Positions 250-28,827 of a stretch of DNA of 64,000 nt are shown here, piece after piece; positions within the stretch are counted from its first letter, which is position 1; each line of letters begins with the position of its first letter. Origin of the DNA: Streptomyces sp. Q6 (lineage in GTDB: Bacteria; Actinomycetota; Actinomycetes; Streptomycetales; Streptomycetaceae). The notes beneath the pieces were generated by a model. It had not been told where the DNA came from and did not search any database. It was given only the letters and a program-made list of their open reading frames with translations. The stretch spans positions 2,480,001 through 2,544,000 of the forward strand of contig NZ_CP146022.1 of NCBI RefSeq assembly GCF_036967205.1. The letters run 5' to 3'. Both the position numbers and the translations under genes were made by a program.

Positions 250-1245
250 GTGCCCACGGTGGCGAAGGAAAGGCCCGATACCGGGGCGGTGAAGACCTCC
301 GGTGGGCCACAAAACGGGTCAATTGACCGCACAGTACGTCGAGATACGAAGTGGAAACGGTTTCGGAGCAGCCGGACCCTGCTGCTGCTCATGCTGCCGG
401 GACTCGTGTACTTCCTGGTCTTCCACTACGGCGCCTTCCTCGGCAACGCGGTGGCGTTCAAGGAGTACGACCCGTTCGCCGGTCTGTGGGGCAGTCCCTG
501 GGTCGGGGGCGGCAACTTCAGCCGGATGTTCGGCGACCCGGACTTCTGGCACGCGACGTGGAACACGCTCTACATCGCCGTGCTCCAGCTGGTGTTCTAC
601 TTCCCGGTGCCGCTCGCGATCGCGCTGCTGCTGCACAGCCTGACGTCCGACCTGCTGCGCCGCTTCGTGCAGTCCGTGGTCTACCTGCCGCACTTCCTGT
701 CATGGGTGATCGTCGTCGCCCTGTTCCAGCAAGTCCTTTCCGACACGGGCCTGTTGAACAGCTTCCTGGGCGACAGCGGCCTGCACACCGTCGACATCAT
801 CGGCAATCCGGACGCGTACCGGCCGCTCGTCGTCGCCGAGGTGATCTGGAAGGACGCCGGCTGGGGCACGATCATCTTCCTGGCCGCGCTGATGCAGGTC
901 GACGAGCAGCAGTACGAGGCCGCGGCGATCGACGGGGCAGGGCCCTGGCGCCGCTTCTGGCACGTGACGCTCCCCTCGATCCGGCCGATCGTCGTGCTGC
1001 TCCTGATCATGCGGCTCGGCGACATCCTCTCCGTCGGCTTCGAACAGATGCTGCTGCAACGGCAGTCGGTGGGCCCGGAGGTCGGCGAGGTCCTCGACAC
1101 CTTCGTCTTCTGGCAGGGCATCGTCGCCGGCGACACCGGCTACGCCGCCGCGGCCGGACTCTTCAAGGGCCTGGTGGGCGCGCTCCTCGTGTTCGTCGCC
1201 AACCGGGTCGCACATCGGCTCGGCGAGCAGGGGGTCTACAAGTGA
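250..1245 (+). CDS. Carbohydrate ABC transporter permease, LplB type
   Basis: A 331-residue inner-membrane permease of the binding-protein-dependent (MalF/LplB) class. After a charged N-terminus it has about six membrane helices, beginning around residue 40 (LLLLMLPGLVYFLVF). It carries the cytoplasmic EAA loop (YEAAAIDGAGPWRRFWHVTL) that docks on the ATPase. GTG 250 is chosen because GGAGGGG precedes it by about six bases and because the alternative TTG at 187 is the -35 hexamer of the promoter. It is translationally coupled to the next permease by a GTGA overlap. No ATPase is encoded nearby; in Streptomyces such importers usually share the general ATPase MsiK, which is inferred here. The substrate is probably an oligosaccharide but cannot be read from the sequence. 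Confidence 0.93.
   Translation: MPTVAKERPDTGAVKTSGGPQNGSIDRTVRRDTKWKRFRSSRTLLLLMLPGLVYFLVFHYGAFLGNAVAFKEYDPFAGLWGSPWVGGGNFSRMFGDPDFWHATWNTLYIAVLQLVFYFPVPLAIALLLHSLTSDLLRRFVQSVVYLPHFLSWVIVVALFQQVLSDTGLLNSFLGDSGLHTVDIIGNPDAYRPLVVAEVIWKDAGWGTIIFLAALMQVDEQQYEAAAIDGAGPWRRFWHVTLPSIRPIVVLLLIMRLGDILSVGFEQMLLQRQSVGPEVGEVLDTFVFWQGIVAGDTGYAAAAGLFKGLVGALLVFVANRVAHRLGEQGVYK
354..364. promoter_or_regulatory. Possible intragenic LacI half-operator
   Basis: GAAACGGTTTC is a perfect odd-length palindrome inside the first permease gene, about 240 bp downstream of the 108-123 operator. The core resembles other LacI-family sites, so it could serve as an auxiliary operator. It is short and lies in coding sequence, so chance is possible. 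Confidence 0.25.
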
Positions 1246-2144
1246 ACAGGTCCGCGCAGGCTCCCTCCCGTCCCGCGTGGCAGGAGAAGCCGAAGCCCGT
1301 CACCCAGGCCGCCAAGGGCCTGGCCGTCCTCGCGCTCCTCGCGCTCGTCCTCGTACCGTTCCTGGTGATCGTCTCCACCTCGCTGGCCTCCAACAAGGAG
1401 GTCGTCGCGAACGGCGGCTGGGTGCTGTGGCCCACCGAGCCGACGCTGCGCGCGTACGAGAACATCCTCAGCGGCGGCATCGTGACGAAGGCGCTCGGCG
1501 TGAGCATCGGCATCACCGCCCTCGGCACGCTCCTGTCGCTCGCGTGCACCGCGTTCCTCGCGTACGCGCTCAGCCGGCCCGGCGTCTTCGGCGGCAGGCC
1601 CGTGCTGCTCCTCGTGCTGTTCACGTTCCTCTTCCCACCCGGCATGATCCCGGCGTTCCTGCTGGTGAAGGGGCTCGGCCTGCAGAACATGTACGCGGCG
1701 CTCGTCGCGCCCGTGCTCATCAACGTCTTCAACCTGGTGGTCCTGCGCGGCTTCTTCCAGGGCATCCCCGAGGAGCTGTACGAGGCGGCACGCCTGGACG
1801 GTGCCGGGGACTGGGCGACGTTCTGGCGGATCGCGCTGCCGCTGTCGAAGGCCGCGCTCGCCGTCGTCGGCCTCTTCTACGCGGTCAGCTACTGGAACTC
1901 GTGGTTCACCGCGTCGATCTACCTGGAGTCCGACCACTGGCCGCTGTCGCAGGTGCTGCGGACGTACGTCATCGGGGGCGCGCAGATCGCCGACACGGGC
2001 CTGAGCGAGGCCGGCATGGTGTCGGCGCCGCAGACGACGCAGATGGCGGTCCTGGTGATCGCGGTCGTACCGATCCTGCTCGTCTACCCCTTCCTCCAGA
2101 AGTACTTCACCAAGGGCGTGCTCACCGGCGCCATCAAGAGCTGA
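1242..2144 (+). CDS. Carbohydrate ABC transporter permease, LplC/MalG type
   Basis: A 300-residue second permease of the importer. It starts at GTG 1242, inside the stop of the first permease, which implies coupling. It has about six transmembrane segments, the first at roughly residues 20-45. The EAA loop reads YEAARLDGAGDWATFWRIALP, and the C-terminus KGVLTGAIKS is typical of the LplC/YtcP group. With the upstream permease it should form the heterodimeric channel that receives sugar from the lipoprotein encoded next (57-base gap). Confidence 0.93.
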   Translation: MNRSAQAPSRPAWQEKPKPVTQAAKGLAVLALLALVLVPFLVIVSTSLASNKEVVANGGWVLWPTEPTLRAYENILSGGIVTKALGVSIGITALGTLLSLACTAFLAYALSRPGVFGGRPVLLLVLFTFLFPPGMIPAFLLVKGLGLQNMYAALVAPVLINVFNLVVLRGFFQGIPEELYEAARLDGAGDWATFWRIALPLSKAALAVVGLFYAVSYWNSWFTASIYLESDHWPLSQVLRTYVIGGAQIADTGLSEAGMVSAPQTTQMAVLVIAVVPILLVYPFLQKYFTKGVLTGAIKS

Positions 2145-2201
2145 GCCACCACCCCCCTCCGCGTGTCCGCTCGACTTCCTTTATCCGAAGGGTCCTTCAC
2201 G

Positions 2202-3851
2202 ATGTCCGCGAACCTCTCGCGCCGCACCCTGCTGCGCTCCATCGCCGTCGGCGGCGCCGCGATCGCCGCCCCGTCCCTGCTCACCGCCTGCTCGTCCGAC
2301 GGCTCCACCGGCGGTTCCGTCTCCAACGCCGGCAAGAAGGCGGCGGCCTGGCCCGCGTACACCCCGGCCAAGGGCGCGACCCCGGACCTGGCCGGCACCG
2401 CCGAGGGCGTGCAGGCCGGCTTCACGAAGTACCCGGGCGAGCTGATCAAGGCGGTCGCGGAGAAGCCGGGCAGCGGCAAGGAGAAGATCCGGGTCCTCAC
2501 GATCACGTACGGCACCCCGCCGAAGGCCGCCGCGCAGAACAAGTACTGGGCGGCGGTCAACGAGGCGCTGGGCGTGGACATCGAGTTCACGGTCGTGGCG
2601 GACGCGGACTACCGCTCCAAGATGGCGACGGTGTTCGCGGGCGACGACATCCCCGACGTCGTCAACCTCGGCGGCGGCTATGTCCTGCCGCGCGAGGCCC
2701 AGTTCGTGAAGACCCGCTGCGCCGACCTCACCGCGTACCTGTCGGGCGACGCGATCAAGGACTACCCGAACCTCGCGGGCATCCCCACGTACGCGTGGGA
2801 GGGCATGGGCCGGATCGCGGGCCGCGTCTACGGCGTCCCGGTGGAGCGGCCCAAGCCGCAGGACACCCTGTACTTCAACAACGGCGCCTTCACGAAGGCC
2901 GGCTACAAGGCGGGCATGTCCGCCGACGACTTCGCGGCCCTGGCGAAGGAGACGACGGGCGGCAGGAAGTGGGCGCTCGGCTCGTCGGCGACCGCGTACT
3001 TCGGGTACAAGACGCACGCCAACTGGTTCGGCGCGCCCAACGAGTTCGCGATGGAGGGCGGCAAGGCCGTCCACTGGGGCGCCACCGACGAGTTCAAGGC
3101 GATGCTGGAGTACCTGGCGAAGCTGCGGCAGCAGGGCTCGTACTACCCGGAGGCCACCTCGGTCTCCCAGGTCGACCTCAAGACGCAGTTCTGGAACGGC
3201 TCCGTGCTGTCCATGACGGACGGCTTCCTCGCCTACCCGGGCTCCGCCCTCGGCATCAAGGACGCCTTCGACCTGGACGCGCTCGTGCCGTACACGGCGC
3301 CCGGCGCGAGCCCCCACTACCAGCAGAGCCGCGGCATCTTCGGCTACACGGTCCTGAAGAAGGCGCCCAAGGCGCGCATCGAGCTGATCCTGCGCGTCCT
3401 CGACTACCTGGCCGCGCCGTTCGGCACCGAGGAGTACGAGCTGACCCACTTCGGTCTGGAGGGCACGCACTTCGAGCGCGACAAGGACAACAACCCGATC
3501 GCGACCGAGCTGGGCCTGGTCGAGTCGAAGACGAACGTGCCGTTCATGTACCTCTGCGACGCCCCGCAGGTGCTGTACGCGCCGGGCTCCCCCGACGTCG
3601 TGGAGCGGCTGCACGGCTGGCAGAAGAAGGTCGTGCCGATGATGCGGCCCAACATCCGCTTCGGCCTCCAGTCGGACACGTACAACAAGCAGGGCGCGGC
3701 CCTGGAGCAGCTGATCAACGACGGGGTCACCGCCATCGTCTCCGGCCGCAAGAAGGTCTCCGACTGGGACGCGGTCTACGCGAAGTGGAAGGCGCAGGGC
3801 GGCACGAAGGTCACGGCGGAGTTCGCCGAGGAGTACGCGGCGGCCCACTGA
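2202..3851 (+). CDS. Extracellular solute-binding lipoprotein, LplA type
   Basis: A 549-residue substrate receptor of the sugar ABC importer. The N-terminus is a twin-arginine lipoprotein signal: SRRTLLRSIAVGG followed by the lipobox LLTAC, so the mature protein is anchored outside the membrane by the cysteine. The length fits the large LplA-type binding proteins (cluster-1 fold). ATG 2202 is preferred over GTG 2163 because it starts the signal peptide directly. The gene follows the two permeases and precedes the LacI regulator, so all four probably act on one carbohydrate. The ligand is not identifiable by eye; LplA relatives take up complex plant or host glycans. Confidence 0.9.
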   Translation: MSANLSRRTLLRSIAVGGAAIAAPSLLTACSSDGSTGGSVSNAGKKAAAWPAYTPAKGATPDLAGTAEGVQAGFTKYPGELIKAVAEKPGSGKEKIRVLTITYGTPPKAAAQNKYWAAVNEALGVDIEFTVVADADYRSKMATVFAGDDIPDVVNLGGGYVLPREAQFVKTRCADLTAYLSGDAIKDYPNLAGIPTYAWEGMGRIAGRVYGVPVERPKPQDTLYFNNGAFTKAGYKAGMSADDFAALAKETTGGRKWALGSSATAYFGYKTHANWFGAPNEFAMEGGKAVHWGATDEFKAMLEYLAKLRQQGSYYPEATSVSQVDLKTQFWNGSVLSMTDGFLAYPGSALGIKDAFDLDALVPYTAPGASPHYQQSRGIFGYTVLKKAPKARIELILRVLDYLAAPFGTEEYELTHFGLEGTHFERDKDNNPIATELGLVESKTNVPFMYLCDAPQVLYAPGSPDVVERLHGWQKKVVPMMRPNIRFGLQSDTYNKQGAALEQLINDGVTAIVSGRKKVSDWDAVYAKWKAQGGTKVTAEFAEEYAAAH

Positions 3852-3926
3852 GCCGACGGCGCACGCGATGATGGTGCGGGGCGCCGCACCGGCGGCCCGC
3901 ACCAGGGGATCTCAGGAGGAGACACA

Positions 3927-4973
3927 GTGGGCGAGCGGGCGACGATCCGGGACGTGGCGGCGCGCGCCGGGGTGTCGGTGGCCACCGTCTCCCGGGTCCT
4001 CGCGGGCACGTATCCGACCTCGGCGGGCTCGCGCGCCAAGGTGCTGCGCGCGGCCAAGGACCTGGACTACGTGGCGAACGCGCACGCGCGGGCGCTCGCC
4101 GGCGCGGGCCGCAAGACCATCGCCGTCCTGATGCTGGACGTCGTCAGCTCCTTCTACGCGGCCGTCGCGCAGGGCGTCGAGCGGGAGGCGGCGCAGCACG
4201 ACCGGTTCACCCTCGTCGCCTCCACGGGCGCGGATCCGGCGCGCGAGCTGGCCCTCGTGCAGATGATGCGGGAGCAGGCCACGGAGGCGGTCGTCCTGGT
4301 CGGCGGCGTCGTCGAGGACGCGGAGTACCGGGAGCGGATGGCGCAGTACGCGCAGTCGCTGGCGGCGGCCGGTTCGCGGCTGGTGCTGTGCGGTCGTCCC
4401 GCGCCCGCGCCGGACGTGCCCGCGGTCGTCGTGGAGTACGACAACGAGGCGGGCGCGTACGCCGTCACCAGTCATCTGCTGGGCGCGGGCCACCGCCGGA
4501 TCGCGATGATCGGCTTCCAGCCGGGCAACACGACCGGTGAGGACCGGGTCCGCGGCTATCTGCGGGCCCTGGAGGACCACGGCGTGCCGGCCTCCGACGC
4601 GCTGCTGCACGGCATCGGCTTCGGACAGCACAACGGCGACGAGGCGATCCGCGGCCTGCTCGACAAGTGCGCGGGCAAGCCGGACTTCACGGCGGTGTTC
4701 GCGGGCGACGACCGGGTGGCCGCCGCCGCGATCAAGGCGCTCGCGGAGTACGGACTGCGGGTGCCGCGGGACATCTCGGTGGTCGGCTACAACGACGACC
4801 CGGTCGCCGCCGACATCACGCCGGGCCTGACCACGGTCCACATCCCGGGCGAGGAGATGGGCCGCACGGCGGTCCGTCTGGCGCTCGGCGGCACGGACCG
4901 CACCGGGCAGCGGCGCCGGCTCCTGGGCACCCACATAGTGGTCCGCGACAGCGTGCGGCGCCTCACTCCGTGA
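3927..4973 (+). CDS. LacI/GalR-family transcriptional regulator
   Basis: A 348-residue repressor. Residues 5-30 (TIRDVAARAGVSVATVSRVL) are the classic LacI helix-turn-helix and hinge start; the rest is a periplasmic-binding-protein-like effector domain ending VVRDSVRRL. GTG 3927 has AGGAGGA seven bases upstream. It lies 75 bp after the solute-binding gene, in the same direction, and probably represses the importer through the palindromes near 108-123 and 202-209 (inference). The last 11 bases overlap, tail to tail, with the amino-acid permease gene. Confidence 0.93.
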   Translation: MGERATIRDVAARAGVSVATVSRVLAGTYPTSAGSRAKVLRAAKDLDYVANAHARALAGAGRKTIAVLMLDVVSSFYAAVAQGVEREAAQHDRFTLVASTGADPARELALVQMMREQATEAVVLVGGVVEDAEYRERMAQYAQSLAAAGSRLVLCGRPAPAPDVPAVVVEYDNEAGAYAVTSHLLGAGHRRIAMIGFQPGNTTGEDRVRGYLRALEDHGVPASDALLHGIGFGQHNGDEAIRGLLDKCAGKPDFTAVFAGDDRVAAAAIKALAEYGLRVPRDISVVGYNDDPVAADITPGLTTVHIPGEEMGRTAVRLALGGTDRTGQRRRLLGTHIVVRDSVRRLTP

Positions 4974-6420
4974 GGGCGGGGTCCCGGTGGTCGGGGTGGA
5001 TCCAGCTCGGCTTGCGGAACCTGAGGAACGCGACCGGGGCGGCCACGCCGAGCAGCAGCAGTCCGCCGCCGACGATGAGCAGGTAACGCCACAGGGGCCC
5101 GGTGTCGTACTGGTCCGGCGGTACGAACCCGATGACGAGCGCGAGCACCGAGGCCACGAACCCGACGCCCGCGACGAGGGTGACGGCGGGCACGACGAAG
5201 CCGCGCGGCACGTCCGGCCGGGTCCGCCGCAGCCGGACCACCGCCAGGAACATCAGCAGGTACGCGACCAGGTAGATCTGGATCGTGATGACGGAGAACA
5301 TCCAGTACTGGCTGGAGACGTCGTCGCTGAAGGCGTACAGGACGCCGATGAGGGTGGTCAGGACGCCCTGGGCGATCATCACGTTCTGCGGGACGCCGTA
5401 CTTGTTGAACCTCTGGAGGAACGGCGGCAGATAGCCCTCCTGCCGGGAGAGCAGGACGAGCCCCTTGGCGGGGCCCGCGAGCCAGGTGAGCATGCCGCCG
5501 AGCGCCGCGCAGACCAGCATGATGCCGACGATCTTCGTCATCCATCCGACGTGGAAGTGGTCGAAGAACGCCTGGAAGGCCTGCATCAGGCCGGCGGTCA
5601 GGCTGAGTTGCTCGGCCGGCATGACCCAGCTGATGGCGAGCGCCGGGAGGATGAAGATCAGCAGGACGAGGCCGGTGGCGAGGAAGACCGAGCGCGGGTA
5701 CTCGCCGCGCGGGCTGCGCAGCGACGACACGTGGACGCCGTTCATCTCCATGCCCGCGTAGGACAGGAAGTTGTTGACGATGAGGACGAGGCTGGCCAGG
5801 CCCGTCCACGGCGGCAGCCAGTGGCCCGCGGTCATCGGGGCGGCCGACGGGTTGCCCTGTCCGAGGAAGACGATGCCGAGGGCGACGAGGACGACACCGG
5901 GGACGAGGGTGCCGATGATCAGCCCGAGCGAGGACAGGCCGGCGACCGTCCTCGTGCCGCGCGAGCTGACCCACACGCCGGCCCAGTAGATGACGACGAT
6001 GCAGATGGCGACGTACAGGCCGTTCTCGGCGAGGCTCGGGTGGATGACGTACGCGAACGTGGACGCGACGTAGGCGAGCAGGCTCGGGTAGTAGGCGATG
6101 GTCATCGCGAACTGGCACCAGACGGCGACGAACCCGAGCGGTTTGCCGAGCGCCTCGCTGACCCAGCGGTAGATGCCGCCGGTCCAGCCGGAGGCCAGTT
6201 CGGCGCCGACGAGGGCGGTGGGCAGCAGGAAGACGAGGGCCGGGAGGAGGTACAGGAAGATCGCGGCGAGGCCGTAGATCGCCATGGTGGGCGAGGGGCG
6301 CAGACTCGCCACGGAGGCGGTGGTCATCAGGCCGAGCGTCACCCAGGAGATGAACTGGCGCCGGTTCCCGTCGTCACCGACCACCGCCTCCCCCTGCCCC
6401 GTTCTGTCCGTAGTCGTCAT
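4963..6420 (-). CDS. APC-family amino acid permease/antiporter
   Basis: A 485-residue integral membrane protein with about twelve predicted helices. It starts MTTTDRTGQGEAVV and runs into ISWVTLGLMTTASVASLRPS, the form seen in the glutamate/GABA antiporter branch of the APC superfamily. Helices such as LPALVFLLPTALVGAELASG and the Met-Asn-Gly-Val segment in the middle support this branch. The exact substrate is unknown. The 3' end overlaps the convergent lacI-type gene by 11 bases. It is divergent from the copper pair starting at 6491, leaving a 70-bp shared promoter region. Confidence 0.88.
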   Translation of the reverse strand: MTTTDRTGQGEAVVGDDGNRRQFISWVTLGLMTTASVASLRPSPTMAIYGLAAIFLYLLPALVFLLPTALVGAELASGWTGGIYRWVSEALGKPLGFVAVWCQFAMTIAYYPSLLAYVASTFAYVIHPSLAENGLYVAICIVVIYWAGVWVSSRGTRTVAGLSSLGLIIGTLVPGVVLVALGIVFLGQGNPSAAPMTAGHWLPPWTGLASLVLIVNNFLSYAGMEMNGVHVSSLRSPRGEYPRSVFLATGLVLLIFILPALAISWVMPAEQLSLTAGLMQAFQAFFDHFHVGWMTKIVGIMLVCAALGGMLTWLAGPAKGLVLLSRQEGYLPPFLQRFNKYGVPQNVMIAQGVLTTLIGVLYAFSDDVSSQYWMFSVITIQIYLVAYLLMFLAVVRLRRTRPDVPRGFVVPAVTLVAGVGFVASVLALVIGFVPPDQYDTGPLWRYLLIVGGGLLLLGVAAPVAFLRFRKPSWIHPDHRDPALTE

Positions 6421-21970: not shown

Positions 21971-22693
21971 CTACACGTCCGTGACGCGCAGACCGGCGTG
22001 GGCCTTGTAGCGGCGGTTGACCGAGATCAGGTTGGCGACCAGGGACTCGACCTGGTGGGCGTTGCGCAGCCGGCCGGAGAAGACGCCGCGCATGCCGGGG
22101 ATGCGGGCCGCGAGGGCCTGGACCAGGTCCGTGTCGGCGCGGCTCTCGCCGAGGACCATCACGTCCGTGTCGATCTCCTCGATCTCCGGGTCGGCGAGCA
22201 GCACGGCGGAGAGGTGGTGGAAGGCGGCGGTGACGCGGGAGTCGGGCAGCAGGGCGGCGGCCTGTTCGGCGGCGCTGCCCTCCTCCGGCTTCAGGGCGTA
22301 GGCGCCCTTCTTGTCGAAGCCGAGCGGGTTGACGCAGTCGACGACGAGCTTGCCCGCGAGGTCCTCGCGCAGCGCTTCCAGGGTGGCTCCGTGGCCGTCC
22401 CACGGCACGGCGACGATCACGATGTCGCTGCGCCGGGCGCACTCGGCGTTGTCGGCGCCCTCGATGCCGAGGCCGTGCTCGTTGAGTTCCTCGGCCGCGG
22501 CCTGCGCGCGCTCGGCGGCGCGGGAGCCGAGGATCACCTTCTGGCCCGCGCGGGCGAAGCGGTAGGCGAGGCCCTTGCCCTGGGGTCCGGTGCCACCGAG
22601 CACGCCGACGACGAGCCCGGAGACGTCGGGCAGGTCCCAGGGGTCCTTGGCGGGGGCCTTCGGGGCGCTCTGTGCGCTGTCACTGGTAGTCAT
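21971..22693 (-). CDS. npdG: NADPH-dependent F420 reductase
   Basis: A 240-residue soluble enzyme that transfers hydride between NADPH and coenzyme F420. The Rossmann signature is VVGVLGGTGPQGKGLAYRFA, followed by ILGSR for NADPH phosphate binding and VIVAVPWDGH, all characteristic of the F420-dependent NADP reductase family. The C-terminus NRRYKAHAGLRVTDV is typical. It supplies reduced F420 for secondary-metabolite oxidoreductases in Streptomyces. Confidence 0.93.
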   Translation of the reverse strand: MTTSDSAQSAPKAPAKDPWDLPDVSGLVVGVLGGTGPQGKGLAYRFARAGQKVILGSRAAERAQAAAEELNEHGLGIEGADNAECARRSDIVIVAVPWDGHGATLEALREDLAGKLVVDCVNPLGFDKKGAYALKPEEGSAAEQAAALLPDSRVTAAFHHLSAVLLADPEIEEIDTDVMVLGESRADTDLVQALAARIPGMRGVFSGRLRNAHQVESLVANLISVNRRYKAHAGLRVTDV

Positions 22694-22706
22694 GCAGCGA
22701 CCCTAC

Positions 22707-23090
22707 TCATGCGTACGGGACTCGTGCGTACGGGCCGGTGGGCGCGGCCACCGGGATCCGGCGGAAGGTGATCGTCTCGTACGGGGAGAAGTCCCCGGTC
22801 TCGTGGAGGAGGCCGACGGCGCCGTCGGTGGAGCGGCGCACCACGACGGCGATGTCTTGGTGGTCCTCGCGGGAGCCCCTGCGGCCCTCGCGGAAGGCGA
22901 AGAAAGTACTGCCGGGCGCGCGGACCACGGCGGGGCTACGGAAACTGGCGTAGCCCTCCTCCCCCGCGCGGAACGGCACGGACGTCTCGGGCGTCGCTCG
23001 GTGCTCCGCTGTGACGGACCTGCTCCCCATGCTTCCCGCTGAAGGTGACTGCGCGTGAACTTCGGTTGCCCTAAGGTCCGTTCGGTCCAC
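22707..23090 (-). pseudogene. Sialidase remnant with large internal deletion
   Basis: The 127-residue open frame joins the two ends of a bacterial sialidase. The N-terminal block (ASFRSPAVVRAPGSTFFAF, then a Gly-Ser-Arg-rich loop, DIAVVVRRSTDG) matches the FRIP/arginine motif and first Asp-box strand. The C-terminal block (GLLHETGDFSPYETITFRRI) matches the end of the beta-propeller. Several hundred residues of the propeller are missing between RRSTDG and GLLHETGDF, with no frame break. No signal peptide is present. It is presumably inactive. It lies 14 bp upstream of npdG on the same strand. Confidence 0.6.
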
Positions 23091-23223
23091 CCGATCCGGG
23101 CAGCAGCGGGCCGCCCGTCCACCGGCGTACGGGAATCGGTACCGCCTTCTTGCGGATACGCCCTGCGCTCCGCAACCGTGGCGGCCCTACCCTGAGTCAT
23201 CACGGCCGAACGGGGGTCGCGGC

Positions 23224-25752
23224 ATGATGGACGATCAGGTCACGCTGAAGGCTGCGGAGTTGATGCGGGACGGGCCGGGGGTGCTCGTCCTGTACGGGGA
23301 GCCGGGCATCGGCAAGTTCCAGGCGGCGCGCGCCGTCGCGGCGCGGGTGCTCGCGGGACACCACGAGAACGGGCGGGCCGGACAGGACGGACAGCTGCTC
23401 GAACTGCGGATGAACTCGTGGGAGGCGGGCGGCGCCCGCTACAACCTCCTTGAGTTGTTGCGGGAGTTGGACGCGCAGCCGTCGCGGCCGTGGGATCTGA
23501 GCGACGCCGAGCTGCGGGAGCTGTACCGCCTGGCGACGGAGCACGTGCCGGTCGTGCTGCTGCTCGACGAGATCGACCGGTGGCACGGCAGCGGCACGGA
23601 CTATCTGCTGCCCGCCGGGCGCGCCTCCCTCGTCATCGCCAGTTGCGCGGCCGAGCTGTCGCGGCGGGAGCTGGCGGAGAGCGGCCTCGATCCGGCCCAG
23701 GTGCACCAGGCACGGGTCACCGGGCCCGGCGCCGACTGGAGCCGGGGCGAGTTCGCGAAGGTGGCCCGGCCCGGTCCCGTGGTGCCGCAGCGTCCCGAGC
23801 GGATGGACGAGCTGGTCGAGCTGTGCCACGACCGGCCGCTCGCGGTGAAGCTCGCCGCCGGCCTGTACGCGCACCACGAGACGTGGACGGCGCGGCAGGT
23901 CGTGGACCTGGCCCGGCTGTCCCCTTCGGAGGACGTCACGGACATCACCCAGCAGCTCCTCGACCGGGTCTACGACCGGCTGCCCGGGGACGAGCGGCAT
24001 CTGTTCGACCTGCTGGCGCTCTCCACCCGGGCGACCGTCGCGGGGGCGTCCGGGGTGACGGCGCAGAGTCTGCGCGAGCGGCCCGGCGAGCCGCCCCGGC
24101 TCTCCGTGGACGAGGGGCTGCGGTCGCTGGCGCGACGCGGTCTGCTGGAGCCGCTGGACACCGACAGCTACCGGCTGAGTCCGTCGGTGCAGCGCTTCGT
24201 CCTGGACCGGCGCAAGCAGCACGAGCCGGCGGACCCGGCGGAACAGAACCTGGCGGAGGCGTTCCGCCGGTTCATGGCGACCATCCCCGAACTGCCGCGG
24301 ATGCCCCTGGAGAACGGCTCGATCGAACAGCTCCTCGCGCGCGCCGACCGGCTCGGCCCGCTGGACGCGCGGGAGACCTGCGCCCTGGCGGCCGACCTCT
24401 GCGACCACCTGGTGCAACAGCGCGCCTCGCTGGTCCTCGCGATGCTGCACTACGTCGTCCAGCAGTTCGCCCGCGACGTACGACGGCTGCTCGAACTGCC
24501 CGTGCACGGCGCCCTGGGCGTCCTCGACCGCAAGTCCGGGCATCTGTCGCACGCCCGGCACCGGCTGCTGTGGGTGCGCGAGCGGTACGCGGAGCTGGGG
24601 TACACCCTCCTGGAGGCCCGCACCCTGCGGCAGATCGGTGTCGCCTGCTACCACGCGGGCGAACTGCGCACGGCGGCCTGCTATCTGCGCCGGGCCGACG
24701 ATCTGGCCGTCGCGCACGGCCATGAGCGCGAACGCCCCTGGGTGTTACGGGTGTTGGGCGCGGTCTACAACGACATGGGCCGCCTGGACGAGGCGAAGCG
24801 GGTTCTGGGCGAGTCGGTGGACCTGCACGAGCGCGCGGGCAACGCGCTGGGCGCCGCCTGGGCGCGCGCGTTCCTCGCCACCTCGCTGCTCCTGTCCCAC
24901 CGCACCGACGAGGCGCACGTCGAACTGGCGCAGGCCCGCGGTGTCTTCGACCGCGAGCTGCCGAAGATCCATTTCGCGCACGCCTGGGCCGATCTGGTGG
25001 AGGGCCGCGAGATGTGGCAGAGCGGCAGCCACGACCAGGCCGTCGAGCTGCTGCGCGAGAGCCGCAACCGCTCGATGGAGCTGAACGAACCCCTGGGCGA
25101 GGGCTGGGCCGCGCTCGAACTGGGCCGCAGGGAGCGCGAGCGGGGCCGCCTGCTCGACGCGCGCACCGTGCTGCACGGCGCGCAGGGGAACTTCCGCGGC
25201 ATGGACAACCGGCTCGGCCTCGCCTGGGTCGCGTACGAACTGGCCCTGCTGCCGACCGATATGACGTCGTGCCAGACACTCCTGGAGAAGGCGGCCGCCG
25301 AGTTCGACATGTGCGGCGAGGCGCGCGGGCTCACCCTCGCGCGGCGGCAGCTGGAGCGGCTCGTACGCGGCGAGCGGCTCGACCCGGACGACGACGGGAC
25401 CCCGTTCCCCGACCCGGGGCCCACCGCGGGCTGCTATCTGACGGTGCGCCGGGTGCCGCCGGTCGTCCACCAGGGGACCACCGTGCGGGTCGGCGTCTAT
25501 CTGGACCTGGCGGTGCAGGAGGCGCTGCGGGCGAGCCGGCACGGGGTGTGCCGGGTGGTGGCCGTGGCGCCGCGCGCGACGGTCGAGCCGACGGCCCGGC
25601 TGCTCGACCCGCACGACCGGCACTGGCCGGTCCGGCTGGAGTTCACGGTGCGGCGCGCGGAGCCGGGCCCGCAGGAACTGCGGTTCCTCGTACTGAACGA
25701 AGCGGCCGGGACGCTGCTTCAGGACATCGAAGCAAGGCTGGACATGCACTGA
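23224..25752 (+). CDS. P-loop (STAND-like) ATPase with TPR repeats, conflict-module sensor
   Basis: An 842-residue protein. Residues 25-32 are a Walker A-like GEPGIGKF, with Phe where Ser/Thr normally binds Mg; Walker B is VVLLLDEID. A helical, TPR-like region follows (about 430-700: repeated Ala/Leu/Glu helices such as ACYLRRADDLAVAHGHER). A beta-rich C-terminal domain (about 735-842) starts YLTVRRVPPVVHQG. Codon 508 (24745-24747) is TTA, the only one I noticed in the window, implying dependence on the bldA tRNA. The CHAT protease gene starts 20 bp downstream. I infer a sensor or scaffold for that protease; there is no direct functional evidence. Confidence 0.8.
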   Translation: MMDDQVTLKAAELMRDGPGVLVLYGEPGIGKFQAARAVAARVLAGHHENGRAGQDGQLLELRMNSWEAGGARYNLLELLRELDAQPSRPWDLSDAELRELYRLATEHVPVVLLLDEIDRWHGSGTDYLLPAGRASLVIASCAAELSRRELAESGLDPAQVHQARVTGPGADWSRGEFAKVARPGPVVPQRPERMDELVELCHDRPLAVKLAAGLYAHHETWTARQVVDLARLSPSEDVTDITQQLLDRVYDRLPGDERHLFDLLALSTRATVAGASGVTAQSLRERPGEPPRLSVDEGLRSLARRGLLEPLDTDSYRLSPSVQRFVLDRRKQHEPADPAEQNLAEAFRRFMATIPELPRMPLENGSIEQLLARADRLGPLDARETCALAADLCDHLVQQRASLVLAMLHYVVQQFARDVRRLLELPVHGALGVLDRKSGHLSHARHRLLWVRERYAELGYTLLEARTLRQIGVACYHAGELRTAACYLRRADDLAVAHGHERERPWVLRVLGAVYNDMGRLDEAKRVLGESVDLHERAGNALGAAWARAFLATSLLLSHRTDEAHVELAQARGVFDRELPKIHFAHAWADLVEGREMWQSGSHDQAVELLRESRNRSMELNEPLGEGWAALELGRRERERGRLLDARTVLHGAQGNFRGMDNRLGLAWVAYELALLPTDMTSCQTLLEKAAAEFDMCGEARGLTLARRQLERLVRGERLDPDDDGTPFPDPGPTAGCYLTVRRVPPVVHQGTTVRVGVYLDLAVQEALRASRHGVCRVVAVAPRATVEPTARLLDPHDRHWPVRLEFTVRRAEPGPQELRFLVLNEAAGTLLQDIEARLDMH

Positions 25753-25771
25753 CACGAAGCGAGTCGCGCCC

Positions 25772-27136
25772 ATGAACCATGACGAGAACGAGCACGGTTA
25801 CGCGTTCGAGGAGCCGGACGACGAGCCGACGGCGACCACGGGGGGCATGAGCACCCAGAGCGAGGAGCTCGCCGAATCGGTCGGCGTCTACGACCCGCGC
25901 CCCGTCACCCTCGCCTTCTCCCGCTCCGAGCTGCACAAGATCTACACCTGCACCCTGCTGTTCACGGGGCAGCGCCGGGCGTGGGCCGCGGACTGCGGCC
26001 CCGCGGGACTGATCGACGCGACGGTCGCGGATCTGCGGTCCCTGTGGGACGAGACGATCCGCAAGAACGGACTGCGCCGCGCCTGGAACCTGACCAGCCA
26101 CGACCAGACCGCTCTGGCGGGCGTCTTCAACCTGCTCGCGCACGCCGGGCGCAAGGCGTTCCGGGTCATCTTCGACGAGCAGGACGACCCGGCCAGGATG
26201 CCCGCGCTGCGCGCCGCGCTGACCCGCAGGCTGCGCCGGGCGGAGGGCTGCCTCGTCGGGGTCTGGTCCGACGACCTGTACGCCCCGTGGGCCCTGCTGT
26301 GCCTGCCGCCGGGCCGCACCGGCTCCGGGGGCGGCGGCCGGCCCACCTCCGCCGCGGAGACCGCGTCGGGGCCGCCGCCCACGGCCGCCGAGTCCTGCGG
26401 GCCCCAGTTCCTCGGCTACCGGCATCTGATCGAGCACCGGGCGCTGCGGCGCGAGCCGCGCTGCCCGAGCGCCCGCATCCCGGTGCACGGCGCGCGGCCC
26501 CGGGCGCTCGCGCTGGTCACCGAGGACGCCCCCGACTCGCACGCCCTGGTGGACCGGCTGCTGCGGGACGCCACGGACGACGGCACCGGCGACGGCTTCG
26601 TGCACTGCGGCCACGACACGTCCCGGTTCCTGAACGAACTGCACGCCGACCGTTTCCGGAGGCAGATCATCTACGCGTACTGCCACGGCCAGGGCTACCG
26701 GCACGACCCGGCCCGGCTGTGGGCGTCGGCCGATCCGGAGGAGGCGATCTCGGCGGCCGACATCATCGACGCGGTCAAGGGCGCGGACGGCGAGGAGGCC
26801 GGGGCGCACGAGTGCGGCCGGGTGCATCTGGTGGGCAGCCCGCTGCTGTACCTGAGCGTGTGCCGGGCCGCGGACTTCAACGCGGCCGACGGTGCCTCGG
26901 TCGCGCGCGCCCTGGCGCGTCTCGGGACGTCCTGCACCGTCGCGCCCGAGGTGATCCTGCCGATGGAGCTGGCGGCGGAGCACGCGCAGCGGTTCTTCGG
27001 ACCCTTCCTCGCCGAGGGCGTCAGCGTGGGCCGCCACCTCCTGGAGGTGACCTGGGCGCTCGCCAAGGACGCCGGGAACCTGCTGGGTCTCACGTACGCC
27101 GTGAAGGGCCGCATGGACACGCGGCTGGGCCGATGA
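25772..27136 (+). CDS. CHAT-domain cysteine protease
   Basis: A 454-residue caspase-like protein. The catalytic pair can be placed: His305 in IIYAYCHGQGY and Cys364 in YLSVCRAADF, with typical flanking beta strands (HLVGSPLLYLSVC). Then comes an Ala-rich helix and a C-terminal segment AEGVSVGRHLLEVTWALA, as in CHAT domains. Residues about 170-210 are a low-complexity linker. The N-terminal half (about 40-165) is not recognised. It sits between the P-loop/TPR gene and an alpha/beta hydrolase gene (ATGA overlap), a guilt-by-association set expected of a sensor, protease and effector. Confidence 0.82.
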   Translation: MNHDENEHGYAFEEPDDEPTATTGGMSTQSEELAESVGVYDPRPVTLAFSRSELHKIYTCTLLFTGQRRAWAADCGPAGLIDATVADLRSLWDETIRKNGLRRAWNLTSHDQTALAGVFNLLAHAGRKAFRVIFDEQDDPARMPALRAALTRRLRRAEGCLVGVWSDDLYAPWALLCLPPGRTGSGGGGRPTSAAETASGPPPTAAESCGPQFLGYRHLIEHRALRREPRCPSARIPVHGARPRALALVTEDAPDSHALVDRLLRDATDDGTGDGFVHCGHDTSRFLNELHADRFRRQIIYAYCHGQGYRHDPARLWASADPEEAISAADIIDAVKGADGEEAGAHECGRVHLVGSPLLYLSVCRAADFNAADGASVARALARLGTSCTVAPEVILPMELAAEHAQRFFGPFLAEGVSVGRHLLEVTWALAKDAGNLLGLTYAVKGRMDTRLGR

Positions 27137-28200
27137 CGCGGCCGCTGCACCCGCTGCCCGTCCTCACCCTGGACCTGGACGCCGACGGGGTGCTGCTGCA
27201 TCCCGTCAGCGGGCGGCGGGTGAAGGACAAGGAGCTGCCGCACGTGATCCGCACGACCCTGGACCTGCCGGCGGCAGTCACCGACGTCGTGGTGTTCGTG
27301 CACGGCTGGCTCACCTCCCGCGAGAAGGCGCTGCGCGGCACCGAGCGGCTGCTGGCCCTGGCCGAGGGCGGGTGGGCCGCCCGCGCGGGGCGCTATCCGG
27401 CGCTGCCGCGCCACACCCGGGTGCAGTGCGTCGCCCTGCGCTGGCGTTCGGTCTCGCTCTACCGGCGGGCCCGCGACCGCACCAGGGGCAACACCCTGGA
27501 GGGGCACGCGGGCCATGTCGTCGCCGCGCTCCTCGGCTACCTCGACGAGTGGCGGGAGCCGCCCCGCCCGGACACGGCGGACACACTGCCCCGGGCGGGC
27601 GGGCAGTACGTGCACGCCGTGGGGCACTCGTTCGGCTGCCGGTTCCTGTGCCAGGCGGTGCCGGAGTCGGGTCCGGCCGAGCTGAGCCGCCGCCCGGTGG
27701 ACGTGCTCGCGCCGGTCCACGAGGACGAGCGCTACGCGTACACCGTCGACTCCCTGCTGCTGCTCCAGATGGCGGCGCCGCCGCGGGTCCTGGCCGCGGG
27801 CGGCGCGTACGGCCGGTTGTTCACGGACGCTCCGGTCAGCGGGCCCGTCGCCGTCACGCACACCCGCCACGACCGGGCGACGGGGCTGTGGCACCGGCTG
27901 CGCGAGGGCGAGCGCGGCATCGGCACGGTCGGGCTGCCGGGCCCGGCCGCGGTGGAGGTGCACCGGACGACCCTGCGGGCGCCGGAACGCGCGTACGCCG
28001 ACGGGGAGCTGCACCACCGGCTGGTCGACGTGGACGCGACGGAGGTGTTCCGGCGCGGCCGCTGGAAGCCCACCGGAGCGCACTCCGACATCTGGTACCC
28101 GCACACCGCGCATCTGCTGCTGAGCCTGATGAACGACGCGCACGAGGCGGCCCGTACGGGCGGTCTTCCCGCGAACGGCCCGAACGGGCCCGTCAGGTGA
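27133..28200 (+). CDS. Alpha/beta hydrolase (putative effector)
   Basis: A 355-residue protein with the alpha/beta hydrolase core: oxyanion HG (VVFVHGWLTS, His57-Gly58), nucleophile elbow GHSFG with Ser166, and a plausible catalytic His317 (TGAHSDIW). No signal peptide or membrane helix is seen, so a cytosolic lipase, esterase or peptidase is possible. It overlaps the CHAT protease gene by ATGA, so its expression is tied to it. Cleavage by the protease as an activation step is only an inference. Confidence 0.8.
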   Translation: MTRPLHPLPVLTLDLDADGVLLHPVSGRRVKDKELPHVIRTTLDLPAAVTDVVVFVHGWLTSREKALRGTERLLALAEGGWAARAGRYPALPRHTRVQCVALRWRSVSLYRRARDRTRGNTLEGHAGHVVAALLGYLDEWREPPRPDTADTLPRAGGQYVHAVGHSFGCRFLCQAVPESGPAELSRRPVDVLAPVHEDERYAYTVDSLLLLQMAAPPRVLAAGGAYGRLFTDAPVSGPVAVTHTRHDRATGLWHRLREGERGIGTVGLPGPAAVEVHRTTLRAPERAYADGELHHRLVDVDATEVFRRGRWKPTGAHSDIWYPHTAHLLLSLMNDAHEAARTGGLPANGPNGPVR

Positions 28201-28206
28201 GGCACC

Positions 28207-28827
28207 ATGCGGCGCATGGACGCCGTACGAGTAGCGCTGCTGCGTGAGGTCCTCGCCGGGACGGAGTGGCCCGCGGCCACCCGCCGTTTCGCCGGGGGGC
28301 TGCGCTCCTCGGTGGCCGCGCACGGCGGCGGGCTGCTGCTCGTGGGGAGCGAGGGGTACGAGCCCTGGCATCTGGCGGCGCATCTGGTGGACGAGGCGGC
28401 CTGGTCCGGCACGCCGGAGCTGTCACCGACCCTCGTACGGCACGCGGCGCGGCCCGACGACCCGGCGCATCTGGCGGTGGGCCTCGGCCGTCTCGAAGCG
28501 GCGCGGCGCGGGGAGACGCTGCTCGTGGTGACGCCGGACCCGGTGGGCGCGCCGCTCCTGGAGCGGGTGCACGACGCCCGCCGGGCCGGGGCGACGGTCC
28601 TCGCGCTCGACTCGGGGACGGCGGGCAACGGGGATCTGCACGCCATGGCGCACGACGCCCTGACCGTGCCCGGGGACACGGATCTCGACCTGGACACGGT
28701 GCAGCATCTGGTCTGCGCGGCGGCGGGCGAGAACGCGACGCCGCCGCCGCGAGGACGCCGGAAGTTCCGGGACCGGCTGTCGCGGCTGGCGGATCACCTG
28801 ACGGCGCCGCCGCCGCCGAGGTGGTGA
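28207..28827 (+). CDS. SIS-like domain protein of unknown function
   Basis: A 206-residue soluble protein. The pattern LLLVGSEGYEPWHLAAHLVDEA, then TLLVVTPDPVGAPLLERVHDARRAGATVLALDSG, resembles sugar-isomerase (SIS) folds, but no catalytic motif is clear. It starts seven bases after the hydrolase gene (ATG 28207, or 28216), probably as the last gene of that operon. It may be a housekeeping neighbour rather than part of the module. Confidence 0.6.
   Translation: MRRMDAVRVALLREVLAGTEWPAATRRFAGGLRSSVAAHGGGLLLVGSEGYEPWHLAAHLVDEAAWSGTPELSPTLVRHAARPDDPAHLAVGLGRLEAARRGETLLVVTPDPVGAPLLERVHDARRAGATVLALDSGTAGNGDLHAMAHDALTVPGDTDLDLDTVQHLVCAAAGENATPPPRGRRKFRDRLSRLADHLTAPPPPRW

Follow-up and report, generated by a model that had tools for sequence, protein, structure and literature searches.

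In a 64,000-nucleotide stretch of Streptomyces sp. Q6 DNA (assembly GCF_036967205.1, contig NZ_CP146022.1, positions 2,480,001 to 2,544,000 of the forward strand), called the window below and meant at its full length, three open reading frames (ORFs) on one strand encode a P-loop/tetratricopeptide-repeat (TPR) protein (P0001), a caspase-like CHAT protease (P0002) and an alpha/beta-hydrolase-like protein (P0003). An earlier note, made from the sequence alone, had pointed to such a trio as a possible cell-death or defence module, and all three ORFs are indeed present on the same strand. The trio is more than a chance neighbourhood, since all parts are at least 75% complete at 39 of 49 related loci and the protease and hydrolase tree distances are correlated (r = 0.81). 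The constant part of the first gene is a short connector, usually C-terminal, and the sensing part is swapped for many folds. On balance the three genes probably form a mobile conflict module in which a sensor would act through its connector on the CHAT protease, and the protease on the hydrolase, leading to death or arrest of the cell. The features of the locus are as follows.

22981..28200, no strand: inserted segment with approximate borders, holding the three genes and about 240 bp 5′ of the first
23224..25752, + strand: front gene P0001, 842 amino acids (aa), with an AAA/STAND-like P-loop region, TPRs and the C-terminal connector (ORF, translation, Pfam)
23269..23595, + strand: P-loop NTPase region, P0001 residues 16-124 (PF00004 at 22-124, PF13401 at 16-120)
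24616..25071, + strand: TPR region, P0001 residues 465-616 (TPR_12, TPR_MalT)
25390..25749, + strand: connector (adaptor) domain, P0001 residues ~723-842 (iterative tail search, alignment A5; profile match 25390-25776)
25772..27136, + strand: CHAT (caspase-like) protease P0002, 454 aa (alignment A3; its relative at locus L046 matches PF12770)
26684..26686, + strand: codon of the predicted catalytic His305 of P0002 (sequence, A3 alignment)
26861..26863, + strand: codon of the predicted catalytic Cys364 of P0002 (sequence, A3 alignment)
27133..27136, + strand: ATGA stop/start overlap of the protease and hydrolase genes (sequence; same 4-base overlap in relatives)
27133..28200, + strand: alpha/beta-hydrolase-like protein P0003, 355 aa (alignment A4: S166, D206, D247, H317)
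27628..27630, + strand: codon of Ser166, the predicted nucleophile of P0003 (GHSFG; sequence, A4 alignment)

The ATGA overlap described earlier is found at the protease/hydrolase junction but not at the sensor/protease junction, where the sensor stop and the protease start lie 19 nt apart.

Co-occurrence of the connector, protease and hydrolase

Searches were carried out with P0002 in 121 genomes of the genus and gave matches in 15 genomes at 16 distinct loci (loci are given L numbers and genomes G numbers). A relative of P0003 adjoins the match at 11 of these 16; the remaining five (L009, L010 and L012-L014) match in the C-terminal part only and are other CHAT proteins. The hydrolase alignment was then scanned against 84,980 species genomes, and the best 80 of 105 confirmed loci were taken. 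The close family was counted as 49 of those loci (L061-L108 and L118), leaving out 29 loci with distant hydrolases and the close-family fragments L109 and L113, which have no CHAT in six-frame translation. The named hosts of the 49 loci (Streptomyces, Actinacidiphila, Kitasatospora, Nocardia, Actinomadura, Actinoplanes and Hamadaea) are all Actinomycetes, and most are Streptomyces.

By gene calls, CHAT lies directly 5′ of the hydrolase in 42 of the 49 loci, with the 4-base overlap in 30 of the 42; L100 has the hydrolase first, then the connector protein and then CHAT. Start positions in the relative loci are approximate because the calls were made with a custom codon-usage caller, and the key counts were redone on six-frame ORFs. 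A CHAT match is then present at 45 loci, the connector at 43 and all three at 43. The six loci without the full set comprise one at a contig edge (L084), those with a truncated or broken hydrolase (L099, L101, L103, L105) and one with an internal deletion (L108). At 39 loci each of the three parts has 75% or more of its length in one reading frame, and the ten below this level are L084 at its contig edge and the damaged-looking L089, L098, L099, L101, L103 and L105-L108. L108 had been considered as a natural STAND-CHAT fusion; this was rejected, as only CHAT positions 295-424 are present, which marks an internal deletion.

The three parts also keep company when each is searched separately. In the 121 genus genomes the connector profile picked out 13 strong loci (all with E of 7e-28 or below, the next match being at 1.9e-4), the protease profile the same 13 (E up to 4e-79), and the hydrolase profile these 13 and a truncated copy in G079. 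Weaker matches are commoner (some CHAT in 26 genomes, some hydrolase in 70) and are distant kin or fragments, for example the hydrolase pieces in G052 (5e-33). Searches with the connector, which scored part of the first-look candidates and may miss distant members, found it at 33 loci in 31 of 392 Streptomyces genomes (E up to 1e-10); six of these loci are letter-for-letter profile rows and 27 are not, and some coincide with loci from the hydrolase scan. CHAT adjoins the connector at 33 of the 33 and the hydrolase at 31; of the other two, L263 is at a contig edge, and L266 has a split CHAT and no hydrolase match. When 394 genomes of the class were searched, connector matches with E below 1e-10 were seen in four, all of the same genus (G000, G088, G271, G499); outside this genus, matches were weak and came from three genomes. 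Connector, CHAT and hydrolase are thus near-obligate partners. Conserved co-occurrence of protease and hydrolase had been named beforehand as the test of the earlier idea, and the locus counts and the connector search bear it out strongly. In one separate case, a 1174-aa protein in G499 (L229, 8327-11851) has several partial connector matches (6e-17), with no CHAT or hydrolase among the near genes.

Tree distances were compared across the 28 loci that the three alignments have in common. The correlations are 0.81 for CHAT and hydrolase, 0.92 for CHAT and connector, and 0.80 for hydrolase and connector; none of 5000 permutations was as high as any of them. The correlated trees show joint inheritance and are no proof by themselves of contact. 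The P0001 family as a whole was tried as the conserved sensor and rejected, as it has matches in 109 of the 121 genus genomes, far beyond the spread of the pair.

Catalytic residues of the protease and hydrolase

The His305/Cys364 pair of the 454-aa protein and the GHSFG serine of the 355-aa protein (S166) are located where the earlier note had placed them. Alignments A3 (36 CHAT rows) and A4 (39 hydrolase rows) were made from intact-looking gene calls, so that damaged copies are absent from both sets of rows. H305 and C364 are invariant in 36/36 rows of A3, and S166, D206, D247 and H317 in 39/39 rows of A4. The invariance of these residues indicates that P0002 and P0003 are conserved as enzymes. 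Either D206 or D247 may be the catalytic Asp of P0003.

Neither P0002 nor P0003 matches a Pfam, NCBIfam or PADLOC family at E up to 1. P0002 is called CHAT because the protease of its close relative L046 matches PF12770 at 3.5e-9 and the CHAT profile matches a 'CHAT domain-containing protein' among solved structures (3.3e-4); another close relative, L041, matches no family. The alpha/beta hydrolase label is based on the GxSxG, Asp and His residues, together with the Abhydrolase matches of distant relatives found with the A4 profile: L120 matches Abhydrolase_8 over the cut-off and L127 matches Abhydrolase_1 just below it. Sequence search of solved structures gave nothing for P0003 and a chance-level match only for the A4 profile. 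Phage carriage was considered and dropped, as P0003 has no match in phage records.

The connector and its varied front ends

The connector is the C-terminal ~120 aa of P0001 and recurs on otherwise unrelated front proteins. Its search was carried out with the tails of 40 front proteins (39 loci and the window), of which the 80-aa call at L080 was dropped, leaving 39 tails. The window tail alone found 27 of the 39, including itself, and 36 of 39 were found after iteration. For the three unmatched tails, the domain is at the N-terminus in L104, is found in six-frame translation in L107 and is deleted in L108; the L080 connector was also detected by six-frame search. The window member matches no Pfam family at E up to 1. 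The 29 aligned members (A5) have weak, scattered Pfam matches only, including bacterial immunoglobulin (Ig) and chagasin-type models, with no match to an effector-associated domain (EAD), and the connector profile gives weak filamin matches against solved structures (0.097). The fold is probably an Ig-like beta sandwich. No connector is present in any of the 36 CHAT rows or the 39 hydrolase rows.

Front ends were classed by Pfam on representatives, and some of the STAND matches are weak. STAND-type NTPases with or without TPRs occur in the window and at L048, L050, L051, L052, L061, L065, L067, L069, L082, L104, L270 and L271. Elsewhere the front end is a PknG-like kinase (L062 and L064, the latter also with a trypsin-like domain), another kinase (L042, L071), a C14 caspase (L049/L097, L070), a sigma-70 factor (L044/L076, with a sub-threshold region-2 match in L080), an HsdR-like helicase-nuclease (L068, L256), a Tle1-like phospholipase domain (L063), EAD2-VMAP (L265), ribosomal protein L4 (L272) or, below the cut-off, DUF6879 (L264). 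Only TPRs were seen in L045 and L046, and no family in L100 and L235. The sensor-protease-effector design suggested earlier is still the best reading but was incomplete, since the first component is not tied to one STAND-TPR family.

In the window, P0001 matches AAA (PF00004) at 3.2e-5, above the family cut-off, and its TPRs match TPR_12 at 7.5e-13 and weakly resemble AfsR (1.1e-7). It is a tentative member of the STAND NTPases, with these AAA and TPR matches, a Walker A motif (GEPGIGKF) without the usual S/T, and a best PADLOC E of 0.0048.

Different front ends are carried by one cassette, and the change falls at the connector boundary. L068, with an HsdR front end, and L076, with a sigma factor, are sisters on the hydrolase tree; they are 72% identical in the connector, 78% in CHAT and 85% in the hydrolase. 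Their N-terminal parts have no BLAST match, and DNA similarity starts near the connector start.

Two kinds of front end, L4 and sigma, were compared with proteins of their own genomes. The front end at L272 (genome G559) is a complete L4 joined to the connector, with the CHAT and hydrolase genes next in line; a second L4 gene of the genome is 88% identical to the L272 L4 over 211 residues. In G032 (S. aurantiacus) residues 38-322 of the front protein, which make up its sigma part, are 87% identical to another sigma factor of the genome, beside whose gene no connector match was seen. These copies of host proteins at 87-88% identity suggest bait or plug-in sensors. Close to the L272 gene (7539-8567) are genes (3608-5122 and 620-3026) that by eye look like the tyrosine integrase and primase of an integrative element, and the gene of the other sigma factor in G032 is preceded by a short gene that by eye appears anti-sigma-like.

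Insertion of the module as a unit

The module is an insertion of ~5.2 kb in the window and is absent at 10/10 related sites. Sequences of these sites follow the window on the left as far as 22662-22988 and again on the right from 28146-28207 onwards, and all three module genes are missing between the flanks at each of the ten. Relatives have no counterpart of the ~18 residues at the end of P0003, a stretch that may belong to the host site. At two related sites similarity resumes at 28146-28151, so that the right border may fall within the ~18 terminal codons of the hydrolase gene. Border repeats were considered and dropped, the longest word common to 22901-23240 and 28151-28260 being 9 bases. 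The GC content of the module is 0.74, similar to the 0.72-0.73 of the flanks. CHAT and hydrolase are also present in three plasmid records, in two of them with the connector (gene calls); the front protein of one plasmid locus, L235, has a weak CHAT match as well (3.8e-6).

Proposed mechanism and competing explanations

From this layout we infer a chain of four steps. An interchangeable front end, which in the window is the AAA/STAND-like P-loop and TPR protein, would recognise a disturbance. The constant connector would dock on the CHAT protease encoded beside it and hold or trigger the protease; in the simplest mechanism the front end would hold or oligomerise CHAT by means of the connector. 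Once activated, CHAT (His305/Cys364) would cut or otherwise release the partner hydrolase (Ser166/His317), and the hydrolase would injure the cell by damaging one of its components, a lipid or some other ester being the most likely. The outcome would be death or growth arrest protecting the mycelium or clone. Release of the hydrolase by the protease, toxicity of the hydrolase and an anti-phage role, all raised in the earlier note, are predictions of this chain.

More tentatively, the front ends may be integrated baits, near-copies of cell proteins fused to a connector that arms CHAT and the hydrolase. The L4 and sigma copies described above are the cases in point, and HsdR, the kinases and VMAP are possibly copies as well. 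An invader or stress acting on the copied machinery would disturb the bait, and the cell would kill itself or arrest. If true, bacteria would have their own version of the integrated-decoy principle known from plant NLRs, here with a single constant killing cassette behind many baits.

Several observations weigh against the conflict-module chain. The hydrolase alignment has no shared insertion that would gate the active site. With a Walker A motif lacking S/T, normal ATP binding by the window sensor may be doubtful. No PADLOC model matches P0001-P0004 below E 0.0048. The similarity of the trees may reflect the joint inheritance of one operon only. The minimum number of front-end class changes on the hydrolase tree is 6 for seven classes (34 classed loci, with five of the 39 rows unclassed and some classes taken from BLAST clusters); as proof of repeated swapping this count was rejected, as 6 is the least possible for seven classes. 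The evidence for swapping is therefore mainly the L068/L076 sister pair.

The same chain could serve regulated death or signalling in development or stress and not act against phage, with sigma factors, PknG-like kinases and AfsR-like STAND-TPR proteins plugging the protease into host regulation. The weak AfsR likeness of the P0001 TPRs, the S. aurantiacus front end that copies the genome's own sigma factor, itself encoded after the anti-sigma-like gene, and the restriction of the named hosts to Actinomycetes agree with such a role. However, a developmental core pathway would hardly be as patchy (31/392 genomes), carried on plasmids and inserted as a unit, and the HsdR and VMAP front ends point to conflict; we regard the developmental role as rather unlikely. 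Less probable still is a division of labour in which killing falls to CHAT, while the hydrolase serves as a regulator or as a second effector that acts independently and without proteolytic activation. This would fit the missing gate in the hydrolase alignment and the other Streptomyces CHAT genes that stand without this hydrolase and connector (L053, L054, L055, L057, L232, L233), but here CHAT and hydrolase are nearly inseparable, and distant hydrolases follow another protease class, a subtilase, in 8 of 9 non-Streptomyces cases. There is very little to be said for an ordinary metabolic hydrolase that sits beside an unrelated protease and regulator by chance or in a housekeeping operon. RefSeq names the hydrolase 'hypothetical protein' in two plasmid relatives and gives no function, which would allow it. 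The pair, though, is near-obligate and co-diverging and is absent as a unit from the related sites, the neighbouring genes P0004 and npdG belong to the host site, outside the module, and the co-occurrence already contradicts such an arrangement; we consider it highly improbable.

Relation to known systems

Close precedents exist for the protease-gated layout. The search of open-access literature found no paper describing the trio, the connector or the L4 and sigma front ends. The nearest description of the pair is the report on VMAP ternary systems by Kaur et al. (2020, PMC7159879), whose caspases are reported to be always accompanied by an alpha/beta-hydrolase gene; these systems are actinobacterial and are predicted to act in conflict. 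Set alongside by description, the likeness is that of a caspase-superfamily protease with a constant alpha/beta-hydrolase neighbour. Their caspase is described as a fusion with VMAP or vWA within a VMAP-MoxR-vWA core, whereas here CHAT is free and the connector is on variable front ends. No component of that core was over the cut-off among the ten window ORFs scanned, and one module (L265) has VMAP as its front end. In 20 Streptomyces VMAP loci there was no A3 or A4 match below E 0.5; because the loci had been chosen for their VMAP-C score and a crude pattern found a caspase-like motif in only a single one, few if any are caspase-bearing and caspase-bearing VMAPs are hardly covered. On this weak test, the idea that VMAP loci regularly contain the pair was dropped. 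The window genome itself has VMAP-C genes at G000:C1:2730895 and G000:C1:7317216, with no A3 or A4 match nearby.

The closest measured precedent, by analogy, comes from pro-nucleases that are activated by a protease and put to use by unrelated immune systems, caspase canu loci among them (Tuck et al. 2025, PMC12799240). As far as that account of the pairs goes, the likenesses are a protease and a paired hydrolytic effector recruited by different systems, similar protease and effector trees, and TPR and Ig-like parts. Their effector is described as a pro-nuclease of the metallo-beta-lactamase (MBL) fold with gating insertions, whereas the present one is an alpha/beta hydrolase whose relatives share no evident gate (P0003 has no MBL match in Pfam); their trypsin is fused to the core enzyme, and here the protease is separate, with the connector on the front end. 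The EAD-coupled systems, as outlined by Kaur et al. (2020, 2021), similarly have a small domain on many partners that links sensors to peptidase effectors. In that outline EADs are on both partners and their contact is proposed to be homotypic, whereas the connector is on the front protein and in none of the 36 CHAT and 39 hydrolase rows.

CHAT proteases in other immune settings also work with set partners. In type III CRISPR systems (Craspase, SAVED-CHAT) they have a dedicated partner in immunity. For fungi, PMC12881547 presents CHAT-gasdermin pairs, in which an immune CHAT protease acts on a partner of its own. As P0002 and P0003 match nothing in Pfam, neither a SAVED nor a gasdermin domain was seen in them, and the partner here is alpha/beta-hydrolase-like.

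Tuck et al. (PMC12799240) state that further proteolytically activated enzyme classes may exist. The present module would add CHAT with an alpha/beta hydrolase as another protease-effector pair among protease-gated conflict systems. The connector, having no Pfam family, is usable as a search handle. The occurrence of one cassette with front ends of three such kinds (ribosomal protein, sigma factor, restriction helicase) is also a natural experiment in which sensing by the front end can be asked about directly.

Other protease-hydrolase and CHAT arrangements were seen in the scans. Distant hydrolases of ~440 aa outside Streptomyces lie directly after a subtilase (S8) gene in 8 of 9 upstream genes scanned (L112, L119, L122, L124, L127, L129, L132, L133), which by sequence would be a parallel protease-hydrolase pairing; in the ninth, L138, the upstream gene is CHAT. 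L138 (7194-10552) and L139 (7194-10546) each encode a ~660-aa CHAT and then a ~448-aa distant hydrolase, with no connector match on the genes checked; of the two record titles one names Microbacteriaceae and one Rathayibacter. At L115, the sole Streptomyces case scanned with a distant hydrolase, the upstream gene is NamZ. At L054 (6122-9201) a 639-aa CHAT is followed by a gene with sub-threshold metallo-beta-lactamase matches, which resembles the canu logic with CHAT as the protease. In Kibdelosporangium (L120, 4693-6732) CHAT is fused to a SIR2-like domain three genes upstream of the distant hydrolase.

Neighbouring genes and insertion sites

P0004 (28207-28827) had been considered as a fourth gene on a weak VMAP-M0 match (0.097), and was rejected as a host gene at the right border, since it is called at 8/10 module-free sites and covered by DNA similarity at 10/10. 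On the left, window positions 22707-23030 are the remnant of a gene that is 357-387 aa long in 6/10 relatives, with an internal loss of ~0.8 kb and a junction near 22819/22820. A recurrent site is seen near an opposite-strand 286-aa gene, close to which 13 of 49 modules or remnants are found (L067, L082, L085, L091, L092, L094, L096, L098, L099, L101, L105, L108, L118). The gene of the 286-aa type at L264 begins with an AHPDDE motif and appears PIG-L-like by eye.

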